Shown piece by piece: positions 9,951 through 32,665 of a stretch of 34,380 bases of DNA. The stretch comes from Thermoplasmata archaeon (GTDB lineage: Archaea > Thermoplasmatota > Thermoplasmata > Lutacidiplasmatales > UBA184). The stretch covers positions 1 through 34,380 of the forward strand of contig JASHTI010000044.1 of assembly GCA_030040625.1 (NCBI GenBank). Reading direction: 5' to 3'. The first letter of the stretch is position 1. Each line of letters starts with the position of its first letter. The notes under the pieces are model-generated. The model saw only the letters and a program-made list of their open reading frames with translations, searched no databases and was not told the DNA's origin. Both the position numbers and the translations under genes were made by a program.

Positions 9951-10026
9951 TGGGCCCGGACGGATTTGAACCGTCGGTCAACCGGTTATGAGCCGGACGC
10001 TCTGAGCCGGGCTAAGCTACGGGCCC
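9951..10026 (-). tRNA. tRNA with CAU anticodon (elongator Met or Ile2)
   Basis: GGGCCCGUAGCUUAGCCCGGCUCAGAGCGUCCGGCUCAUAACCGGUUGACCGACGGUUCAAAUCCGUCCGGGCCC+A. Acceptor GGGCCCG/CGGGCCC, T-arm GACGG-UUCAAAU-CCGUC, anticodon loop CUCAUAA. No encoded CCA. Confidence 0.93.
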
Positions 10027-10045: not shown

Positions 10046-10149
10046 CGCCGCCGAGCGGAATTTGGGGCGCGCGGCGTGCGGCCGCGGGCCTTTCGAACCG
10101 CTGACCTTTCGGTTAACAGCCGATCGCTCTGCCGCTGAGCTACGGCGGC
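10046..10149 (-). tRNA. tRNA-Asn (GUU) interrupted by a 32-nt T-loop intron (intron about 10060..10091)
   Basis: 5' exon GCCGCCGUAGCUCAGCGGCAGAGCGAUCGGCUGUUAACCGAAAGGUCAGCGGUUCGAA; 3' exon UCCGCUCGGCGGCG. Joined exons give acceptor GCCGCCG/CGGCGGC, T-stem AGCGG/CCGCU, T-loop UUCGAAU, discriminator G. Confidence 0.88.
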
Positions 10150-19511: not shown

Positions 19512-19817
19512 TCACCCGTCCCGAACGGAAGAAGGCGGCGACGGCCGCACGGCCGCCGGTCCAAAGGTAACGGTACGCAGCAGCAGGGAGGCCGCGCGAG
19601 GGTCGGTCGGGGACGGCAGCAGCTCGACCTCGAGGACGGCCGCTTCGGCGGGGCCCCCGGCCATCGCCCGGGCCCAGAGCTGCCGGAGCCGGGGCTCATC
19701 GACGTGGGCGAGCGGCCCCAGCGCCACCGAGGCACGAAGGATCGCTGCTCCGCCCGCGCCGCGGGAGAGCTCTTCGACCTTACGGCGCAGGTCGCGCATG
19801 AGCGCCTCTTCGTGCAT
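19512..19817 (-). CDS. hypA: HypA-like nickel metallochaperone lacking the zinc domain Cys residues
   Basis: MHEEALMRDLRRKVEELSRGAGGAAILRASVALGPLAHVDEPRLRQLWARAMAGGPAEAAVLEVEL: N-terminal MHE and HypA fold pattern. No Cys in the whole protein. Confidence 0.72.
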   Translation of the reverse strand: MHEEALMRDLRRKVEELSRGAGGAAILRASVALGPLAHVDEPRLRQLWARAMAGGPAEAAVLEVELLPSPTDPRAASLLLRTVTFGPAAVRPSPPSSVRDG

Positions 19818-19820
19818 CGC

Positions 19821-20303
19821 TCACCCCGTCTCCGTCGGCCACGCTTGCAGCTCGCGGACGATCGCCTCGGCCGCCCGCGGCACCCCGGCGGCGACCTCCT
19901 CGCTCAGCGTCGGTCCGAAGCCGAGCTCTCCGGCCTCGATCAGATACACGACCAGCCGGCGCGGCGCCCGGCCGAGCTCGACGGCGAGGGCATAGGCGTC
20001 CGGCAGCGAGAGCGCGTGCGACGAGGTCGACGGGCCGATCGGCGCCCGGGCGAGCGCCGCGCCCTCGAGGCGAAGTACGCTCCCGGCGGTGGCGCCGGTG
20101 CGGCCGGCGTCCACCACGATCGCCGGCGCGGCGTCGCTCCAGAGCTCCAGCAGCTGCAACGGCTCGGCGACCCGCTCGACGAGCGCGACGGAGGGGGAGA
20201 GGCGTCCCCGCAGCGCCCGAACCACGCGCGGCCCGCATCCGTCGTCCCGGCGGGCGGGCTCCCCGAGGCCGAGGACCATCGGTCGGCCGGCGGGGGTGCT
20301 CAT
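19821..20303 (-). CDS. [NiFe]-hydrogenase maturation protease (HycI/HybD family)
   Basis: VLGLGEPARRDDGCGPRVVRAL; AIVVDAGRTGATAGSVLRL; SSHALSLPDAYALA: Asp/Asp/His metal-site residues in order. Confidence 0.85.
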   Translation of the reverse strand: MSTPAGRPMVLGLGEPARRDDGCGPRVVRALRGRLSPSVALVERVAEPLQLLELWSDAAPAIVVDAGRTGATAGSVLRLEGAALARAPIGPSTSSHALSLPDAYALAVELGRAPRRLVVYLIEAGELGFGPTLSEEVAAGVPRAAEAIVRELQAWPTETG

Positions 20304-21604
20304 GCCGCGCCCTCGCGCCGGAGGTCCAAGCGAAGGAAGTGCGTGGCGCAGGAGATGCAGGGGTCGTGGTTGCGGATCGCCTTCTCGCAGGCGTCCGCGA
20401 TCCCGGCGTCGTCCCGGTCGACGGAGCGCCGCACGACGCCGCGGAGGTCGTCCTCGATCCGCATCTGGTTCTGCGAGGTCGGCGCCACGATCCGAGCCTC
20501 CTCGATGCGGCCGTCGGCCCCGAGGCGGTAGCGGTGGTACAGCATCCCGCGCGGCGCCTCGGTGATCGCCGCACCGGTGCCGCCGGACACGCGATCGGGG
20601 GCGGCCACCCAGGCCCGCTCGGGAGGCTGGTAGCGGTCCAGCAGGCGGAGCGCCTCCTCGCACGCGAAAAGGATCTCCACGGCCCGGACCTGGATCGACC
20701 GGTACGGGTTCCGCACCTCGCGACCGAGGCCGGCGTGCCGCGCGGCCGAGGCCGCCCGGGGGGTGAGCCGATCCGAGTTCAGGCTGTACCGGGCGAGCGG
20801 CCCGACCAGGTACGAACCGCCGCCGCGACGACGGCAATGCAGGGCGTGGGAGTGGGCGACCTGGACCTCCTCGAACTCGCGTTCGAAGTCCGCGGCGTCC
20901 AGCGAGAGCCCGGCGCTGGAGGTGATCCGTCCCTCGTTCATCGGATACTCCTCGGGGTGGCGGAGCGCGACGAACTCGTACGGTTCGTCGACGTCCGGGT
21001 AGGCGAGCTCCTCCGTGAAGCGGACGGTCGCCTCGGCGAGGTCGATCGCCGACCGAAGGGTCGTGCGCAGCGCCCCGAGCTCCTCCGTCGACGGGAGACG
21101 GTAGAACCCGCCGACGCGCACGTTCACCGGGTGGATCTCTCGCCCCCCGAGGACCGAGAGGACGGTGTTGCCGGCCTTCTTCAGCGCGAGCCCCTGCCGG
21201 ACGAGCTCCGGCCGCTCCTTGGCGAGGCGCACGGCGTCCGGGAGCCCCAGGAAGTCGGGGGCGTGGAGCAGGTAGAGGTGCAGGGCGTGGCTCTCGATCC
21301 ACTCGCCGCAGTACAGCACCCGCCGGAGGTCCCGGAGGGCTCCGTCGACGCGGATCCCGAGCGCCCGCTCGACCGCGTGGCAGGCGCTCATCTGGTAGGC
21401 GACCGGGCAGATCCCGCAGATCCGCGCGGTGATGTCCGGCGCCTCGCCGTACATCCTCCCGCGCAGCAGCGCCTCGAAGAAGCGGGGCGGCTCGAAGATG
21501 CGCAGTTCGATCTCCGCCACCTCGCGTCCCGCGAGCCGAACCCGCAACGCCCCCTCCCCCTCCACCCGGGCGAGGTAGTCGACGGCGATCGTCCGCTCCG
21601 TCAC
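20300..21604 (-). CDS. hydA: Group 3b-type [NiFe]-hydrogenase large (alpha) subunit
   Basis: L1 [20 protein letters not shown]2 [21 protein letters not shown], with a short C-terminal extension for proteolytic maturation. GTG start in GTGA overlap with hydD stop. Confidence 0.92.
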
Positions 21605-22398
21605 GGGGCGCCTCCGGCCGGGGCGGCGGCGGACTCGGAGGCCTCGCGGAAGGCGGGGGCCGCGGCGTTGAACGTCCGGAAGACCCGCTGGACATCCGCC
21701 GGGGCGAGGCCGAGCTCGCGGAGCCGGCGCACGAGGGAGGGGGCGTTCGGCGTGTCCTGCGGGCCGAAGCAGCCGTAGCAGCCGCGGTGGTACGCCGGGC
21801 AGATCGCCCCGCAGCCGGTCTGGGTCACCGGGCCGAGGCACGGGGTCCCGTGCGCGACCACGACGCAGACGTTGCCGCGGCGTTTGCACTCCCCGCAGAC
21901 GCTTTCGGTCGGGACGTTCGGGGCACGGTCCCCGAGGAACGCCGAGATCACCTCGAGAAGCTGGCCTTTGTTGATCGGGCAGCCGCGGAGCTCGAAGTCG
22001 ACCGGAACGTGCGCCGAGATCGGCGTCGAGGTCGCGAGCGTCGCGATGTACTCCGGCCGGGCGTAGACGGCCCGCGCGAACTCCGCGACGTCCCCGAAGT
22101 TCCGGAGCGCCTGGATCCCCCCGGCCGTCGCGCAGGCGCCGATCGTTAGGAGGAAGCGCGCCTCCGCCCGCACCTGGCGTACGAGCTCGAGGTCGTGCGG
22201 GGTCGTCACGGAGCCCTCCACGATCGCCAGGTCGTACGGCCCCTCCACCGTAGCGCTGGACGCCTCGCGGAACAGGGCGATCTCGACCGCCCCGGCGACG
22301 GCGAGCAGCTCGTCCTCGCAGTCGAGCAAGGTCAGCTGGCAGCCGTCGCACGAGGCGAACTTGTAGACCGCCACGCGGGGACGGGGGACCCGCGGCAT
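21601..22398 (-). CDS. hydD: [NiFe]-hydrogenase small (delta) subunit
   Basis: [101 protein letters not shown]. Confidence 0.93.
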
Positions 22399-22399
22399 G

Positions 22400-23263
22400 C
22401 TACAGCTCCCGAACGCCGAGGTACGGCGCGATCCGCGCGTACGGAAGGACCGGACCGTCGCGGCAGACGAACTCCGGACCGAACTGGCAGTGGCCGCAGA
22501 AGCCGACGGCGCACTTCATGTTCCGCTCCATCGACAGGAAGATCGCCTCGGCGGGGACGCCCCGCTCGAGCAGCGCCTTCGCCGTGAACCGCATCATCAC
22601 CTCCGGGCCGCAGACGAACGCGACGGTGTTCGCCGGATCGAAGCGTGCATCCGGCAGCCGGGTCGTGACGACGCCGACGTCGCCGTACCAGTCCCGTCCG
22701 GCGGCGTCGACGGTCACCTGGAACCGAAGGTCGCTCCGCGCGCGCCAGCGCTGGATCTCCTCGTAGAAGACCAAGCTCTTCGGCGTCCGGGCCCCGTAGA
22801 CGACCTCGATCCGCCCGAATCGCTCCCGCTCGGCGAGCAGCCGATAGAGCAGCGGTCGAAGCGGCGGCAGGCCGAGGCCTCCGGCCGCGAGCACCACATC
22901 GCGGCCGACCGCTCGCTCGAGGGGCCAGCCGTTCCCGTACGGCCCGCGAACGCCGACGCAGCTGCCCGGGGGCGCGGCGAACAGCGCCCGGCTCGTCGCC
23001 CCCAGCGCCTGCACCGTGTGCACGAGCGCACCGTCCGGGGCGCCGGAGATCGAGATCGCGGCCTCGCCGATCCCGAAGGCGTACAGCATGTTGAACTGCC
23101 CGGGAGCGGACGACGGGGTGACGGCGCCATCGACCGGGGCGAGGACGAGGGTCGCGATGTCCGCCGTCTCCTCGGTGCGGCTCCGCACGCGGTACGGCAC
23201 CGGGGCGTACGGGCCCGCCGGCCCGACCGGAAGGCCCCCCGAGGTCGCCCGTTCAGAGGACAT
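22400..23263 (-). CDS. hydG: Hydrogenase gamma subunit: FAD/NAD(P)-binding oxidoreductase
   Basis: [115 protein letters not shown]. Confidence 0.92.
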
Positions 23264-23723
23264 CGGCCTCCAGCAGCTGGACCCGGAGGCCGTGGAGCCG
23301 GCCGGCGAGGACCGGTAGAAGGCGCAGCAGGAACGCGTAGCCCTCCTCGGGGTGCGCGGCGAGCCGCTCCCGCAGGACCGCGGCGTTGACCGCGACGACC
23401 TGCGTCGGCTTGGAGGCGATCGCGTCGAGGGTCCAACGGTGCGGGGAGAGGAGCCAGGACCAGCCGAGGACCTCCCCCGGCCCGACCGTCTGGACCGTCA
23501 GTCGCGCCCGGTCGGCCGCGAACACCTCGAGAGCCACCTTCCCCTGTTCGACCGCGATGAACTCCTCGGCGTCCCGCCCCTCGCGGAGGAGGAACTCTCC
23601 GACGCGGTAGCTCCGGAGGGCGGCTGCGCCCGCCGCCGCGCGAACGAGCCCGGCCGGGAGTCCGCGGAAGAACTCGTGGGCCTCCAGGCGGGCGATCCGC
23701 GCGGTCGGGGACTCCGTGCTCAC
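23253..23723 (-). CDS. CRP-like cyclic-nucleotide-binding-fold domain protein without HTH
   Basis: [51 protein letters not shown]...[37 protein letters not shown] start in GTGA overlap with hydB stop. Ends without a DNA-binding domain. Confidence 0.85.
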
Positions 23724-24895
23724 GGACTCCTCCGCGCAGGTCCGCTCGCCCCGGGCGTCGCCCGGATCGCCGCGACCTCCTCGGTGATGTCGATGCCGAC
23801 GGGGCACCAGGTGATGCAACGGCCGCAGCCGACGCAGCCGGAACTATCGAACTGGTCGTGCCAGCTGGCGAGCTTGTGGGTCATCCACTGCCGGTAGCGG
23901 GAGGACGTCGACTTCCGAACCGGGGCGTGGTGGAGCTCGGAGAACGCGCTGTTGAAGCAGGAGTCCCACCGCCGCCACCGCTCGACCTTCGCCCCGGAGA
24001 GGTCCGGCACCTCCTCGCTCGAGCTGCAGAAGCAGGTCGGGCAGGCCAGCGTGCAGTTGGTGCACGCCAGGCAGCGCTCGGCGACCAACTGCCACCGCGG
24101 ATGTTCCGGGTTCCCGAGCAAGAGGTCGCGGAGCCCGGCGGGATCCAGGCGACGTCCCATCGCGCCCGCGGCCGACTCGACCCGCGCCGCGGCGGCGCGC
24201 GCGTCCTCGTCCGTCGCCGGCCGTGTCGGTACCCCGGCGAGGATCGCCGCGCCCCGCTCGCTCCCGGCCCGGATCAGGAACTCGTGGCGTTCGGGCGAGA
24301 GCAGTTCGGTGAGGATCAGGTCGGCGGAACCCCCCCGCACCGCGGGGCCGGTTCCCATCGACGTGCAGAAACAGGTCGCGCCGGCCTGCCCGCACTCGAC
24401 GGCGATGCGCAGGCAGGCCTGCCGACGGGCGTGGTACCCCGGGTCCGGAACGCGCCCGTCGAAAACGCGGTCCTGGATCGCGACGGCGGCGAGCTCGCAG
24501 CCGCGCATGCCGAGGAAGGCGAGCGGCGCCTCGTCGCGGGGCTCCGCCTGGACGGTGAAGCCGCCGTCGGCGGTTCCCGTCGCCGAGAACAGTCGCTCCC
24601 GGGCCGGAAAGAGGTACTTCTTCCAGCTGTGCGGGCCGACATTGTAGCCGAAGAGCGCGGCGTCGTCGCGGCGCTCCAACCGGTACGTACCGGCTTCCTG
24701 GCGGTCCGTCCACCCGATGGGCAGATCCTCGACCCGCGCGATCTCACCGTAGACGATCGCGCCGTCCCGAATCGTCGGGCCGACGATCCGGTAGCCGGCG
24801 GCGCGGATCGCCTCCAGGAGCCGTGGGAAGGCCTCCCGCGAGAGCACGCTTGCGCTCGACCCACCGGCTGTCTCCATCATCGCCCTCCGCTGCAT
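23720..24895 (-). CDS. hydB: Hydrogenase beta subunit: 4Fe-4S protein
   Basis: [22 protein letters not shown]...[72 protein letters not shown]. Confidence 0.92.
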
Positions 24896-25064
24896 TGCGG
24901 CCCGCGGAGCCGGCCGCCGTCCGAGGGAACGGACGCGGTCAAAAGAGGGTTTGGTCGAGGGGACTTTACCCCCCGTTTCGGGAGCGACCCCGAGCGGACC
25001 GCCGGCGGCCGTCAGGCCCACTTCACCCCGGCTTCATCGGCTCTCGGCCCGGTCCCCGGTTCGC

Positions 25065-28362: not shown

Positions 28363-28728
28363 GTGGGGCCCGAGGTGCTGGTCGTCGACGAGGCCGCGAG
28401 TCTGGGCTCGGCCGTGGTGGCCCTCCTCGAGGTCGAGGGGCTCCGCGTCCGGCGATTCCCGGACCTGGCGGCCGCCGAGGCCCACCAGCAGGGTGCGGGG
28501 GGCCCGCTCCCCGTCCTCGTCGTCGCCTCCAACGCCCACCAGAGCCCCAGCCTGACGCGGTGGCCGCAGGGGTCGCTCCGCGACGCGAAGCTGGTCATCG
28601 TCGGCACGCGGGATCCGACGCTCACCTCCCACGGCGCGCTGCACGTCATCCGCCTCCCGCTCGACCCCGGCCGGCTGCTGGAGCTGGTCCGACAACTCGC
28701 CCGAGCCGACCCGCCGTCCGGTCCGTGA
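28363..28728 (+). CDS. Receiver-like (pseudo-receiver) domain protein
   Basis: MGPEVLVVDEAASLGSAVVALLEVEGLRVRRFPDLAAAEAHQQ...LPVLVVASNAHQSPSL...KLVIVGTRD...HVIRLPLDPGRLLELV: receiver-like pattern, but no Asp at the expected phosphoacceptor position. Confidence 0.55.
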   Translation: MGPEVLVVDEAASLGSAVVALLEVEGLRVRRFPDLAAAEAHQQGAGGPLPVLVVASNAHQSPSLTRWPQGSLRDAKLVIVGTRDPTLTSHGALHVIRLPLDPGRLLELVRQLARADPPSGP

Positions 28729-28752
28729 GCGCGACGCCGGCCCGCGCCGCTC

Positions 28753-29682
28753 CTACGCCGTCAGGGGGATCGGCGGGGGGCGAGCGACCGCCGCGGTCTC
28801 GCGTTCGCGCCGGCAGAGCCGCTCCCAGCCGGCCCGGGCCTGGGCGCCCAGCTCGCGGATCTCGGCGTCCGTCCAGTGCCGGAAACGGCCCTGGGCCCGG
28901 ACGTACTCGTCGACCGGCTTGAGCGTACCGTACGGCCGCGTGATCCGATAGACGCCGTCCTCGACCTCGTACAGCGGGAAGAGGCCGGTCTCCGTGGCGA
29001 GACGCCCCAGCGCGATCGTCTCCTCGCTCGAGAAACGCCAGCCCGGCGGGCACGGCGCGAGGATGTGGAGGAACCTCGGCCCCCGCGCCGCGCGGGCCCG
29101 CTCCGCCTTGCGGACGAGATCCTCCGGGAACGCCGGGTTCGCGGTCGCGGCGTAGCTCGGGTGGTGCGCGAGGACGACCTCCATGATCTCCTTCTTCGGC
29201 TCGCGCTTGCCGCGCCGCGTCCCGGCGACCGGGGTCGTCGTCGTCCAGGCGCCCTGCGGCGTGGCGCCGCTGCGCTGCACGCCGGTGTTCATGTAGCCCT
29301 CGTTGTCGTACATCACGAAGATCGCGTCGGTCCGGCGTTCCAGCATCCCGCTGAGCGCCTGGAGGCCGATGTCGGCGGTCCCCCCGTCGCCGGCGAATCC
29401 CGCGACGGTCACGTCCGCGAGCCCCAGCGCGTCCGCCGCCGCGCGGAGACCGGCGAGCGACGCGCCCGTGGACTCGATCGGGTTGTCGAGGACCGCGACC
29501 GCCAGCGCCGTCGTCGGGAACGGCGTGGCGATGACGGTCCAGCAGCACGCCGGGATCGCCAGGATCGTTCGGGGCCCGAGCCCCTTGAGCAGCAGGCGCA
29601 TCGCCAGCGCCGGCCCGCAGCCGGGGCACGCGGCGTGGCCCCGGTACATCCACTCCTCGGCGGGCAGCGTGAGCTTAGCCAT
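28753..29682 (-). CDS. 2-oxoacid:ferredoxin oxidoreductase (POR/VOR type) beta subunit
   Basis: GHAACPGCGPALAMRLLLKGLGPRTILAIPACCWTVI; FAGDGGTADIGLQALSGMLERRTDAIFVMYDNEGYMNTGVQRSGATPQGAWTTTTP: TPP-binding subunit. Confidence 0.92.
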   Translation of the reverse strand: MAKLTLPAEEWMYRGHAACPGCGPALAMRLLLKGLGPRTILAIPACCWTVIATPFPTTALAVAVLDNPIESTGASLAGLRAAADALGLADVTVAGFAGDGGTADIGLQALSGMLERRTDAIFVMYDNEGYMNTGVQRSGATPQGAWTTTTPVAGTRRGKREPKKEIMEVVLAHHPSYAATANPAFPEDLVRKAERARAARGPRFLHILAPCPPGWRFSSEETIALGRLATETGLFPLYEVEDGVYRITRPYGTLKPVDEYVRAQGRFRHWTDAEIRELGAQARAGWERLCRRERETAAVARPPPIPLTA

Positions 29683-30856
29683 GGACGTCGACCTCCAGGG
29701 GGGCGAGGTCCGCCCAGCGCGGCTCGGGATCGGCCGGCCCGAGGAGCTCCGCGAACATCCGTCGAATGTGGGCGGGGGTGACGTCCCGCCCACCCACGCC
29801 GGCCAGGAAGCCGGCGACGAGCGGTCGGTGGGGTCCCCGGTAGAGCGCCGCCTGCACCTCGGTCGCGGCCGCCCCCGAGGCACCGAAGGTGTACGAGCGG
29901 TCGACGACCCCGAGCCGGTCGACGGTCGCCGCGAGGCGACGCAGTTCCGTGTCCGGGAACGGTCGGAAGAGTCGGAGCTTGGCGAGACCCACGCGCTGGC
30001 CGGCCGCCCGGAGCTCGTCGACGACGGTCCGCGCGGTCGTGGTCATCGTACCCATCGTCACGAGCACCGCGTCCGCGCCCTCGGCGCGATAGGTCGGCAG
30101 CGCCCCCCCGTGCGAGCGGCCGGTGAGACGGCGGTACTCCTCCTCGACCTCCGGCAGGACCCGGGGCACCTGGGCGGAGGCCCGGGCGAGCTCGCGGCGG
30201 AACTCGACGTAACGGTCGGGCCCGGTGAACGAGCCGAGGCGACCAACGGTCCCCGGCACGAGGATCGCATGGCCGGTGCGGGGCGGCAGGAACCGGTCGA
30301 CGATCTCCGGCTCCGGAACGTCGACCGGCTCGACGGTGTGCGACAGGTAGAAGGCGTCCTCGCTGACCATCACCGGCAGCCGGACCTCGGCCGTCTCGGC
30401 CAGCCGGTAGGCGACCAGGACCGTGTCGAGGACCTCCTGGTTGCTCTCGGGATAGAACTGGATCCAGCCGGTGTCCCGCTGGCTCATCGTGTCCGTGTGG
30501 TCGGCGCCGATGTTCCAGGGCGGCGCCACGGCGCGGTTCACCACGCCCATGACGATCGGGGCGCGCAGTCCGGCCGCCCAGTGCAGCAGCTCGTGCATGA
30601 GCAGCAGGCCCTGGCTCGAGGTCGCCGTGTAGGTCCGCGCCCCGAGCGCCGAGGCGCTCACGACGGCCTGGAGCGCCGAGTGCTCGCTCTCGACCTCGAT
30701 GAGCTGGGCCTCCAGCGCGCCGGTGGCGACGAACTCCGCGAGCTTCTCGACGATCGTCGTCTGCGGGGTGATCGGGTAGGCCGAGATCACCTGGGCCCGG
30801 GCGAGCCGCACCGCGTGCGACTGCGCGTGGTTGCCGGAGAGGACCTCCCGCGTCAT
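29675..30856 (-). CDS. 2-oxoacid:ferredoxin oxidoreductase alpha subunit
   Basis: LSGNHAQSHAVRLARAQVISAYPITPQTTIVEKLAEFVATGALEAQLIEVESEHSALQAVVSASALGARTYTATSSQGLLLMHELLHWAAGLRAPIVMGVVNRAVAPPWNI. Confidence 0.93.
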   Translation of the reverse strand: MTREVLSGNHAQSHAVRLARAQVISAYPITPQTTIVEKLAEFVATGALEAQLIEVESEHSALQAVVSASALGARTYTATSSQGLLLMHELLHWAAGLRAPIVMGVVNRAVAPPWNIGADHTDTMSQRDTGWIQFYPESNQEVLDTVLVAYRLAETAEVRLPVMVSEDAFYLSHTVEPVDVPEPEIVDRFLPPRTGHAILVPGTVGRLGSFTGPDRYVEFRRELARASAQVPRVLPEVEEEYRRLTGRSHGGALPTYRAEGADAVLVTMGTMTTTARTVVDELRAAGQRVGLAKLRLFRPFPDTELRRLAATVDRLGVVDRSYTFGASGAAATEVQAALYRGPHRPLVAGFLAGVGGRDVTPAHIRRMFAELLGPADPEPRWADLAPLEVDVHG

Positions 30857-31719
30857 GGCCCCTCCGAGGCCGCGACCATCGCGATCGTGTGCGGCGGGCA
30901 GACCTCGGCGCATATCCCGCAGCCCTTGCAGGCGTCCAGCACGAGGACCGGGTAGCCGCGTCCGTCCAGCTCGATCGCGTCGTCCGGGCAGTACTTCCAG
31001 CAGAAGTTGCAGCGGGTGCACCGTCGCTCGTCGATCTCCGGGACGAGCGTCCGCCAGGAGCCCGTCCGGATCGAGCTGCTCGGGAGCCTGGCGAGCGGGC
31101 CCTCCGGGATCGGCACGGTCACCGCGAACGGTATCCGGGCCGCACCGTTCGCGCTTGGCGCGGCCGGGTCCCCGAGACGGACGGAGGCGAAGCCGTCGGT
31201 GGCCGCCGCCCGGTTCTCCGCGGGCGCCGCCGGCACGTAGCGGTCGATCGCCCGCCCGAGCGCCTCGAGGCTCACGACCCCGGTCACCCGGGCCAGGGCG
31301 CCAAGGATCGTCGTGTTGACGATCGGCATCGTCCGCGAGCCCAGCCCGTGGGCCAGGGCGATCGCCGTCGCGTCGACCGAAGCACGTCGGACCCCGTCGG
31401 GTGCCTCCAGCCGGGCCGGGGGCAGGGGGCTGTTCACGAGGAGGAGGCCGCCGGTGCGCAGTCCATCGCCGACCGAGGTCGTCCGAAGGAGGCCCGGCTC
31501 GAGCACCACCACCACGTCCGGGGTGACGATCGACGTCCGGACCCCGATGGGGCGGTCATCGACGCGGGCGTAGGCCGTCACCGGCGCCCCGCGGCGCTCC
31601 ACGCCGAAGAACGGGAAGCTCTGAGGCGAGCGGCCGTCCAGAAAGGCGGCCTGCGCGAGGAGCTCGGAAGCGAGGACCGCTCCCTGCCCGCCCCGGCCGT
31701 GGAATCGGATCTCGATCAT
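30853..31719 (-). CDS. 2-oxoacid:ferredoxin oxidoreductase fused gamma-delta subunit
   Basis: [71 protein letters not shown]...[16 protein letters not shown]. Confidence 0.93.
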
Positions 31720-31720
31720 C

Positions 31721-32665
31721 TCACCCGCTCGATCCCCGTCCGGTCGCATGAACCGTCGGTGCATCCGGGTTGACCGACGGCCGCCGGGTGCGCTGGAGGA
31801 CCAGCAGCGCGGCGAGGATCAGGGCCAGGCCGATCACCTCCTCGGGCACGAACGGCTCTCCGAAGGCGACGACGCCGACCGCGAGGGCTACGACCGGGTT
31901 CAGGTACGTGACCTGGTTCGCGCCGACCGGCCCTCGGGTCCGGAGCAGGTCGAAGAAGATCGCGTAGCCGATCGCCATCGACACGACGCCGACGTAGAGG
32001 ACGGAACCGACGACCGGCGCGACGGCCGGAAGGCGCAGGTTCGGCTCGAGCACGGCGACGGCGGCGAGCGCCGCGGCGCCGCCGCCCAGGAATTGGAACG
32101 TCGCCCCCCAGAGACCCTCGCCCCGCGGCCGAAGCCGGACGAGCCCGACCGCTCCGGCGCCCTGGCACGTCGCCCCGAGCCCGAAGGCGACGAGCCCCCA
32201 GGGGCTCGTGACGGCGGCGCCTCCCGCCGCCAGCGCGAGGACGAGAACGCCGGCGAGGCCCAGGACGAGCGCGGCGGCGCCCCCGGGACCGATCCGCTCG
32301 CGGGCGCCGAGCAGGGCGGCGAAGCCGAGGCTCAGCATCGGCGAGGTGGCGTAGACGACGGAGGCAACGCCTCCGGTGGCGAACCGCTCCCCCCAGAACA
32401 GCGGCAGATTGATCCCGGCGATCAATAGCGCACCCACGCCGGCGGAGACCGCGAGGTCGGCGGCGGACGGGCGCGGTCCGCCGTACCGAGCCGCAACGGG
32501 CGCCGTCGCCACGGCGGCGACGGCGAAGTCGACGGTCACGAGGAGGAACGGGTTACCGCCGGCGGCGACGCCGAGCCGGCTCACCGGGAAGGTGATGCCC
32601 CAGAGGACCCCGAGCACGAGGAGGCGCACGAGCGGCGAGCCCGCCGTACGGACCGTGCCGGCCAT
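31721..32665 (-). CDS. EamA/DMT-family transporter
   Basis: [44 protein letters not shown]...[35 protein letters not shown]...[22 protein letters not shown]. Confidence 0.85.

Follow-up and report, generated by a model that had tools for sequence, protein, structure and literature searches.

The window analyzed here, a 34,380-nt stretch that is contig 25 of a 1.5-Mb draft archaeal genome (~74% complete, 168 contigs), carries on its minus strand at 10149..10046 a gene for tRNA-Asn(GUU) that is split by 32 nt (10091..10060) at T-loop positions 59/60 (Table 1). Direct reading gave an acceptor stem GCCGCCG/CGGCGGC, a T-stem AGCGG/CCGCU, a 5' bulge AAA, a 3' bulge AUU, a central helix UUCG/CCAA with three of its four positions paired and one C·C mismatch, and an inner helix GGCCCGCGGC/GCCGCGCGCC, also with one C·C mismatch. 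The first-pass annotation had described this locus as a tRNA-Asn gene with a bulge-helix-bulge (BHB) intron, and its coordinates, bulges, helices, mismatches, loop, and discriminator were all recovered by direct reading and parsing. Excision of 10060..10091 leaves GCCGCCGTAGCTCAGCGGCAGAGCGATCGGCTGTTAACCGAAAGGTCAGCGGTTCGAATCCGCTCGGCGGCG, a 72-nt tRNA with a complete T-stem and acceptor, in which the predicted junction CGGTTCGAA^TCCGCT restores the T-loop UUCGAAU.

Table 1. Features of the tRNA-Asn(GUU) locus in the window, and integrase genes adjoining tRNA genes in the complete relative G039
Feature	Position	Strand	Content or basis
tRNA-Asn(GUU) 5' exon	10092..10149	-	Acceptor 5' strand, D arm, anticodon arm (GUU), start of T-stem/T-loop
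T-stem 5' strand AGCGG	10098-10102	-	In 5' exon
T-loop nt 54-59 UUCGAA	10092-10097	-	In 5' exon
5' splice-site bulge A58 A59 ^ A(+1)	10091..10093	-	Direct reading; cut predicted from BHB rule
Intron at 59/60, 32 nt	10060..10091	-	Parsing and 83/83 orthologs of the window's family
Intron inner helix	10081-10090 with 10066-10075	-	
Inner-helix loop, 5 nt	10076-10080	-	
Central helix 3' half CCAA	10062-10065	-	In intron
3' splice-site bulge A U ^ U60	10059..10061	-	Direct reading; cut predicted from BHB rule
tRNA-Asn 3' exon	10046..10059	-	T-loop U60 (10059), T-stem 3' strand CCGCU (10054-10058), acceptor 3' strand CGGCGGC (10047-10053), discriminator G (10046)
Intronless CAU tRNA, adjacent	9951..10026	-	Next to tRNA-Asn in many relatives; ARAGORN/Rfam
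tRNA-adjacent integrase genes (G039)	C14:21344-22439; C1:37042-37694		

The gene had been described as unworkable when read contiguously and as prone to be missed or mis-bounded by standard scans, and both statements hold. ARAGORN reported tRNA-Asn(gtt) for the spliced form and no gene for the unspliced form; run on the window, it missed tRNA-Asn and called only the adjacent CAU tRNA. The Rfam tRNA model covered 10096-10149 only, with the T-arm deleted and a score of 33.3 bits. Since these two tools miss or mis-bound such genes, the tRNA inventories of the soil archaea considered here are undercounted by simple tools. By chance, only about 0.001-0.002 stretches per 60 nt of window sequence would pair at 12/12 positions with the 5' T-stem plus acceptor. 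A T-arm model trained without Asn sequences (R2) ranked the tRNA-Asn site first in the window, at 22.9 versus 21.7 bits for a chance match, and is too weak by itself as proof of the window site.

The neighboring CAU tRNA is called tRNA-Met by ARAGORN and may be tRNA-Ile2(CAU), because two other such genes were found, one elongator-Met-like and carrying a 37/38 insert (L016) and, in G039, one initiator-like (L207). This CAU tRNA is intronless in the window, and a T-loop intron is present in the CAU tRNA of family f25 (L356, L366, L367). Elsewhere in the window, an archaeal 23S rRNA gene is represented by its 5' part at the contig edge (1-552, minus strand), frames at 19800-25000 (minus strand) resemble a [NiFe]-hydrogenase operon with large, small, and diaphorase-like subunits, and the region 28600-31800 resembles 2-oxoacid:ferredoxin oxidoreductase. 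Scanning viral contigs with the frame neighboring tRNA-Asn returned no match.

A search for the tRNA-Asn 5'-half pattern found matches in 82 of the 103 genomes of the window's family and exactly one site in the window's own genome. All 83 readable genes, i.e., those with an assembled T-arm, from 81 genomes and six of the seven genera of the family, contain an insert of 28-35 nt at the same nucleotide, always after UUCRA(A/U). The T-stem is paired at 5/5 positions and the acceptor at 7/7 positions in the 82 genes with an assembled 5' end, so that orthologs assembled at both ends have 12/12 stem pairs. These data also bear on two of the ways in which the first-pass annotation might have failed, namely an intronless tRNA-Asn(GUU) elsewhere or an assembly error in the 32-nt segment. 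For a genome about 74% complete in 168 contigs, in which a second gene could be missing, one might suppose that the copy in the window is a decayed pseudogene or a misassembly and that a working tRNA-Asn lies elsewhere; however, the 81 genomes were assembled separately and their 83 readable genes all carry the insert with intact stem pairs, and no intronless tRNA-Asn was found in the own genome or in the family, including the 100% complete G039, which leaves this explanation with a negligible probability.

The insert is variable in sequence and constant in structure. Among the tRNA-Asn orthologs, the inner helix is 86% paired, compared to 58 ± 1.4% for shuffled and 40-54% for slid sequences. 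In the 45 gap-free T-arms, double-sided changes were observed in all ten inner-helix pairs, and the whole-structure covariation was 0.343 versus 0.124 ± 0.011 after shuffling. Pair 1 of the T-stem, whose halves flank the intron, covaries among A-U, C-G, and G-C. The inner helix is thus nearly free in sequence yet paired, so that the insert is maintained as an RNA structure. A functional RNA inside the intron was considered and rejected, as sequence conservation is lacking. Of the 76 distinct orthologs, 75 have A58-A59-N as the 5' bulge; over the 76, the central helix is 80% paired, and the geometry of bulges and helices is fixed in all. In alignment A4, 74% of the central-helix cells are paired, and 27 of 45 sequences, the window included, lack the C56 pair; because of this imperfect central helix, part of the genus has a relaxed BHB, and the motif is canonical in a subset of genomes. 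Folding of the precursor with RNAfold did not reproduce the expected structure: the minimum free energy fold differs from the BHB form and is of modest stability (z -1.75). The comparative evidence, comprising the 83/83 orthologs and the covarying helices, is decisive for the reality of the insert, and we conclude that the T-loop insert in tRNA-Asn is a real and conserved trait of the lineage.

The tRNA-Asn gene is one member of a much larger intron pattern. In the own genome, a 59/60 insert was also found in tRNA-Ala(GGC), Arg(UCU), Ser(CGA, GCU, GGA), Asp, His, Lys(UUU), and Gly(UCC), amounting to approximately ten tRNAs with this intron type. A covariance model of the intron-bearing T-arm was scanned against genomes of the class, including 18 of the window's family; T-arms aligned across tRNAs with MAFFT showed a one-base shift at stems ending in AG/CT, and such rows were excluded from the models. 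Matches to the model numbered 5-14 per genome among the 18 family genomes, 2-3 in sister families, and mostly 0-5 per genome elsewhere in the class Thermoplasmata, many other members of which have one to five tRNAs with the 59/60 intron type. G039, which has 42 tRNA-like loci by Rfam, gave 13 matches, among which the tRNAs read out were Asn, Arg(UCU), Arg(UCG), Glu(CUC), Gln(CUG), Ala(GGC), Ser(GCU, GGA, CGA), Gly(UCC), His, and Asp. In one checked batch, 20 of the 20 matches pulled were tRNAs with a 59/60 insert, several of them with two or three introns; an R1 match, L358, was on reading a tRNA-Lys(UUU) with three inserts. The intron type has spread through the family to roughly one quarter to one third of its tRNAs. 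The T-loop inserts are 13 to 38 nt long and sit at one fixed nucleotide; in family f3 they have shrunk to 13-15 nt (L197, L198, L199, and L200; genome G224), the minimal example being tRNA-Arg(UCU) with TTCAAA[AGTAAACTGAAAA]T.

The position of the tRNA-Asn intron differs among related families. In 13 other families sampled from the class, tRNA-Asn had no T-loop insert, and a 37/38 insert was found in tRNA-Asn of families f11, f29, and f30. In the sister family f2 of the same order (L343), tRNA-Asn has its insert at the canonical position 37/38 and its T-loop is intact, whereas the intron lies in the T-loop here; families of one order therefore differ in tRNA-Asn intron position. Recent transposition between tRNAs was rejected as a source of the pattern, as same-genome introns are hardly more alike than shuffled ones (mean z 0.57, 72 pairs), and for the same reason the route of spread is not visible.

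The insert also folds into a stable hairpin beyond the T-stem, which would be consistent with a lineage-specific expansion of the tRNA, the insert being retained unspliced in the mature molecule as a longer T-arm hairpin. However, if the insert were retained, between a quarter and a third of the tRNAs, including those for Asn, Ala, Ser, Asp, and His, would lose their 7-nt T-loop, whereas the T-loop is normal in other tRNAs of this genome. Moreover, the 3-nt bulges and the central helix are needed by a splice site but not by a plain hairpin, and the insert varies from 13 to 38 nt in length at a single fixed nucleotide. We consider retention very improbable. In agreement with the first-pass annotation, a non-canonical BHB intron at 59/60 with exactly the proposed boundaries is the best reading: with high probability, the insert is an archaeal BHB intron in the only tRNA-Asn(GUU) gene found in the genome and is removed by the splicing endonuclease EndA and the ligase RtcB.

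The own genome encodes one EndA gene (354 aa; L116:1471-2535, minus strand), a fused two-unit protein with two PF01974 and two PF02778 stretches. In the second unit, the catalytic residues Tyr269, His288, and Lys331 are invariant among 12 aligned sequences, and the first unit has no His at the place matching the catalytic His288. The same fused arrangement was found in ten further genomes of the order, none of which has a second PF01974 gene passing the cut-off; the single PF01974 gene is consistent with a homodimer. An AlphaFold2 model of EndA (pLDDT 91.7) matched best the Methanopyrus subunit-fusion construct 5X89 (TM 0.87-0.91), with Archaeoglobus fulgidus EndA also among the top PDB matches (TM 0.75-0.89). 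The closest named relatives of the protein are in the Thermoplasmata archaeon genomes UBA184, UBA61, AcS, and SubAcS; the window's lineage is Ca. Lutacidiplasmatales (Thermoplasmatota). The crenarchaeal-specific loop with its Lys (K44 of A. pernix) is absent, appearing as gaps in the alignment to 3p1z, and the second unit aligns as being as short as M. jannaschii 1a79. Based on sequence and model comparisons, EndA, whose subunit type the first-pass annotation had suggested inspecting, is of the fused two-unit alpha'2 type and lacks the loop linked to broad specificity. RtcB is encoded by one gene in the own genome and in six other genomes.

The intron anatomy, its conservation and covariation, and the enzyme genes were observed directly, whereas we infer from the established mechanism of BHB splicing that the precursor is cleaved, where precisely it is cut, and that the exons are joined. 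In the precursor, the T-stem would serve as the outer helix, the central helix would form between T-loop nucleotides 54-57 and the intron, and the intron hairpin would provide the inner helix. The single fused EndA would cut both 3-nt bulges, after A59 and before U60, and RtcB would ligate the exons, restoring the T-loop UUCGAAU. The first-pass annotation further proposed that such introns need an endonuclease tolerating relaxed BHB motifs. A specially relaxed enzyme is not clearly needed, since the motif is near the standard hBHBh' and the sole EndA is of the alpha'2 type without the broad-specificity loop. Reports on alpha'2 enzymes conflict. A review lists them as narrow in specificity (PMC6379350), whereas a homodimeric EndA from Ferroplasma, a member of the Thermoplasmata, is reported to cleave minimal BHB substrates at 30°C and homodimeric forms are said to accept bulge-helix-loop motifs as well (PMC8707768); the latter view fits the pattern observed here.

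Introns at 59/60 are of an already known kind (PMC4090602). In Thermoproteales and other Thermoproteota, BHB introns occupy the non-canonical positions 20/21, 25/26, 45/46, 53/54, 56/57, and 59/60 (PMC4090602), and non-canonical introns have been described from Thermoproteota, Thaumarchaeota, Nanoarchaeota, Korarchaeota, ARMAN, and three thermophilic methanogens (PMC3218864, PMC4033280), with Asgard archaea as a recent addition (PMC11291895). The Thermoproteota introns resemble those described here in their 59/60 position, BHB motif, short length, and presence of several introns in some tRNA genes, but they occur mostly with a heterotetrameric (alpha-beta)2 EndA carrying a specific loop, whereas a member of the Thermoplasmatota with one fused EndA gene is concerned here, and the T-loop site dominates, unlike in Thermoproteota. 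The Asgard Atabeyarchaeia and Freyarchaeia are likewise soil archaea with many non-canonical tRNA introns recognized by close genome reading; their introns occur in 92-95% of tRNAs, often at non-canonical positions (PMC11291895), compared to 59/60 introns in about a quarter to a third of tRNAs here. The korarchaeal alpha2 enzyme also combines a single-gene EndA with non-canonical tRNA introns, and Korarchaeum cryptofilum was called the only such case in 2014 (PMC4033280), but its EndA is said to carry the specific loop, whereas the EndA described here has no insertion relative to A. pernix around K44. Known alpha'2 enzymes (A. fulgidus 2GJW/1RLV; Thermoplasma acidophilum 2OHC; Ferroplasma acidarmanus, PMC8707768) share with it a single gene with two PF01974 and two PF02778 stretches and a catalytic His in the second unit only; however, Euryarchaea bearing them have been described with introns at canonical positions, in contrast to 5-14 T-loop introns per genome here.

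Euryarchaeal lineages with alpha4 or alpha2 EndA have been reported to possess few tRNA introns at the canonical position only, while loop-bearing EndA opened other intron positions (PMC4090602, PMC4033280). What is new here is a large 59/60 expansion in a group said to have canonical introns only, together with an EndA type that is often described as narrow; what surprises is the lineage and the number of introns. Our search of the open-access literature found no report of such introns in Thermoplasmatota, and the word 'intron' does not occur in the main text of the paper proposing Ca. Lutacidiplasmatales in this phylum (PMC9287336); a prior annotation in subscription papers, supplements, or GtRNAdb is possible. 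We suggest that an old 59/60 intron of Thermoplasmata has probably expanded in Lutacidiplasmatales to a quarter to a third of tRNAs and is spliced there by a loop-less alpha'2 EndA. If so, the rule tying broad non-canonical sets to (alpha-beta)2, epsilon2, or loop-bearing enzymes would be incomplete, and near-canonical BHB geometry, rather than a special enzyme, would suffice for colonizing new tRNA positions. With a whole family that combines 5-14 T-loop introns per genome and a fused EndA lacking the loop, the published rule on EndA type and intron position can be tested directly using a single enzyme and a single pre-tRNA, and the fast-changing inner helices provide a large natural set of BHB substrates.

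In addition to being spliced out, the intron might be kept for a function of its own, such as shielding essential tRNAs from integrases, which would extend the splicing explanation rather than replace it. According to an idea of Randau and Soell, cited in PMC3218864, a T-loop intron breaks the tRNA 3' half that is used as an integrase attachment site. Both tRNA-adjacent integrase genes in G039 adjoin tRNAs without a T-loop intron, tRNA-Met and tRNA-Thr(CGU); however, two integrases are too few, as about half of random tRNA pairs would have no T-loop introns, and the almost unconserved intron sequence makes a sequence-based role unlikely. The case for shielding is weak, and we regard a function of the intron itself as rather unlikely. 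Another idea is that the intron persists neutrally, with no role past being spliced out.

Several tRNA genes of these genomes are interrupted at other sites. D-arm inserts are present in tRNA-Arg(GCG) of the own genome and of G039 and in the CAU initiator-like tRNA of G039 (L027, L176, L207), as well as in tRNA-Lys(UUU) of the own genome. The tRNA-Lys(UUU) gene of the own genome combines D-loop and T-loop introns (L155 160-320), and that of families f16 and f25 has D-loop, 37/38, and T-loop introns (L358, L369). The anticodon-region insert of tRNA-Trp (L157/L184) is very long, about 100 nt or more.
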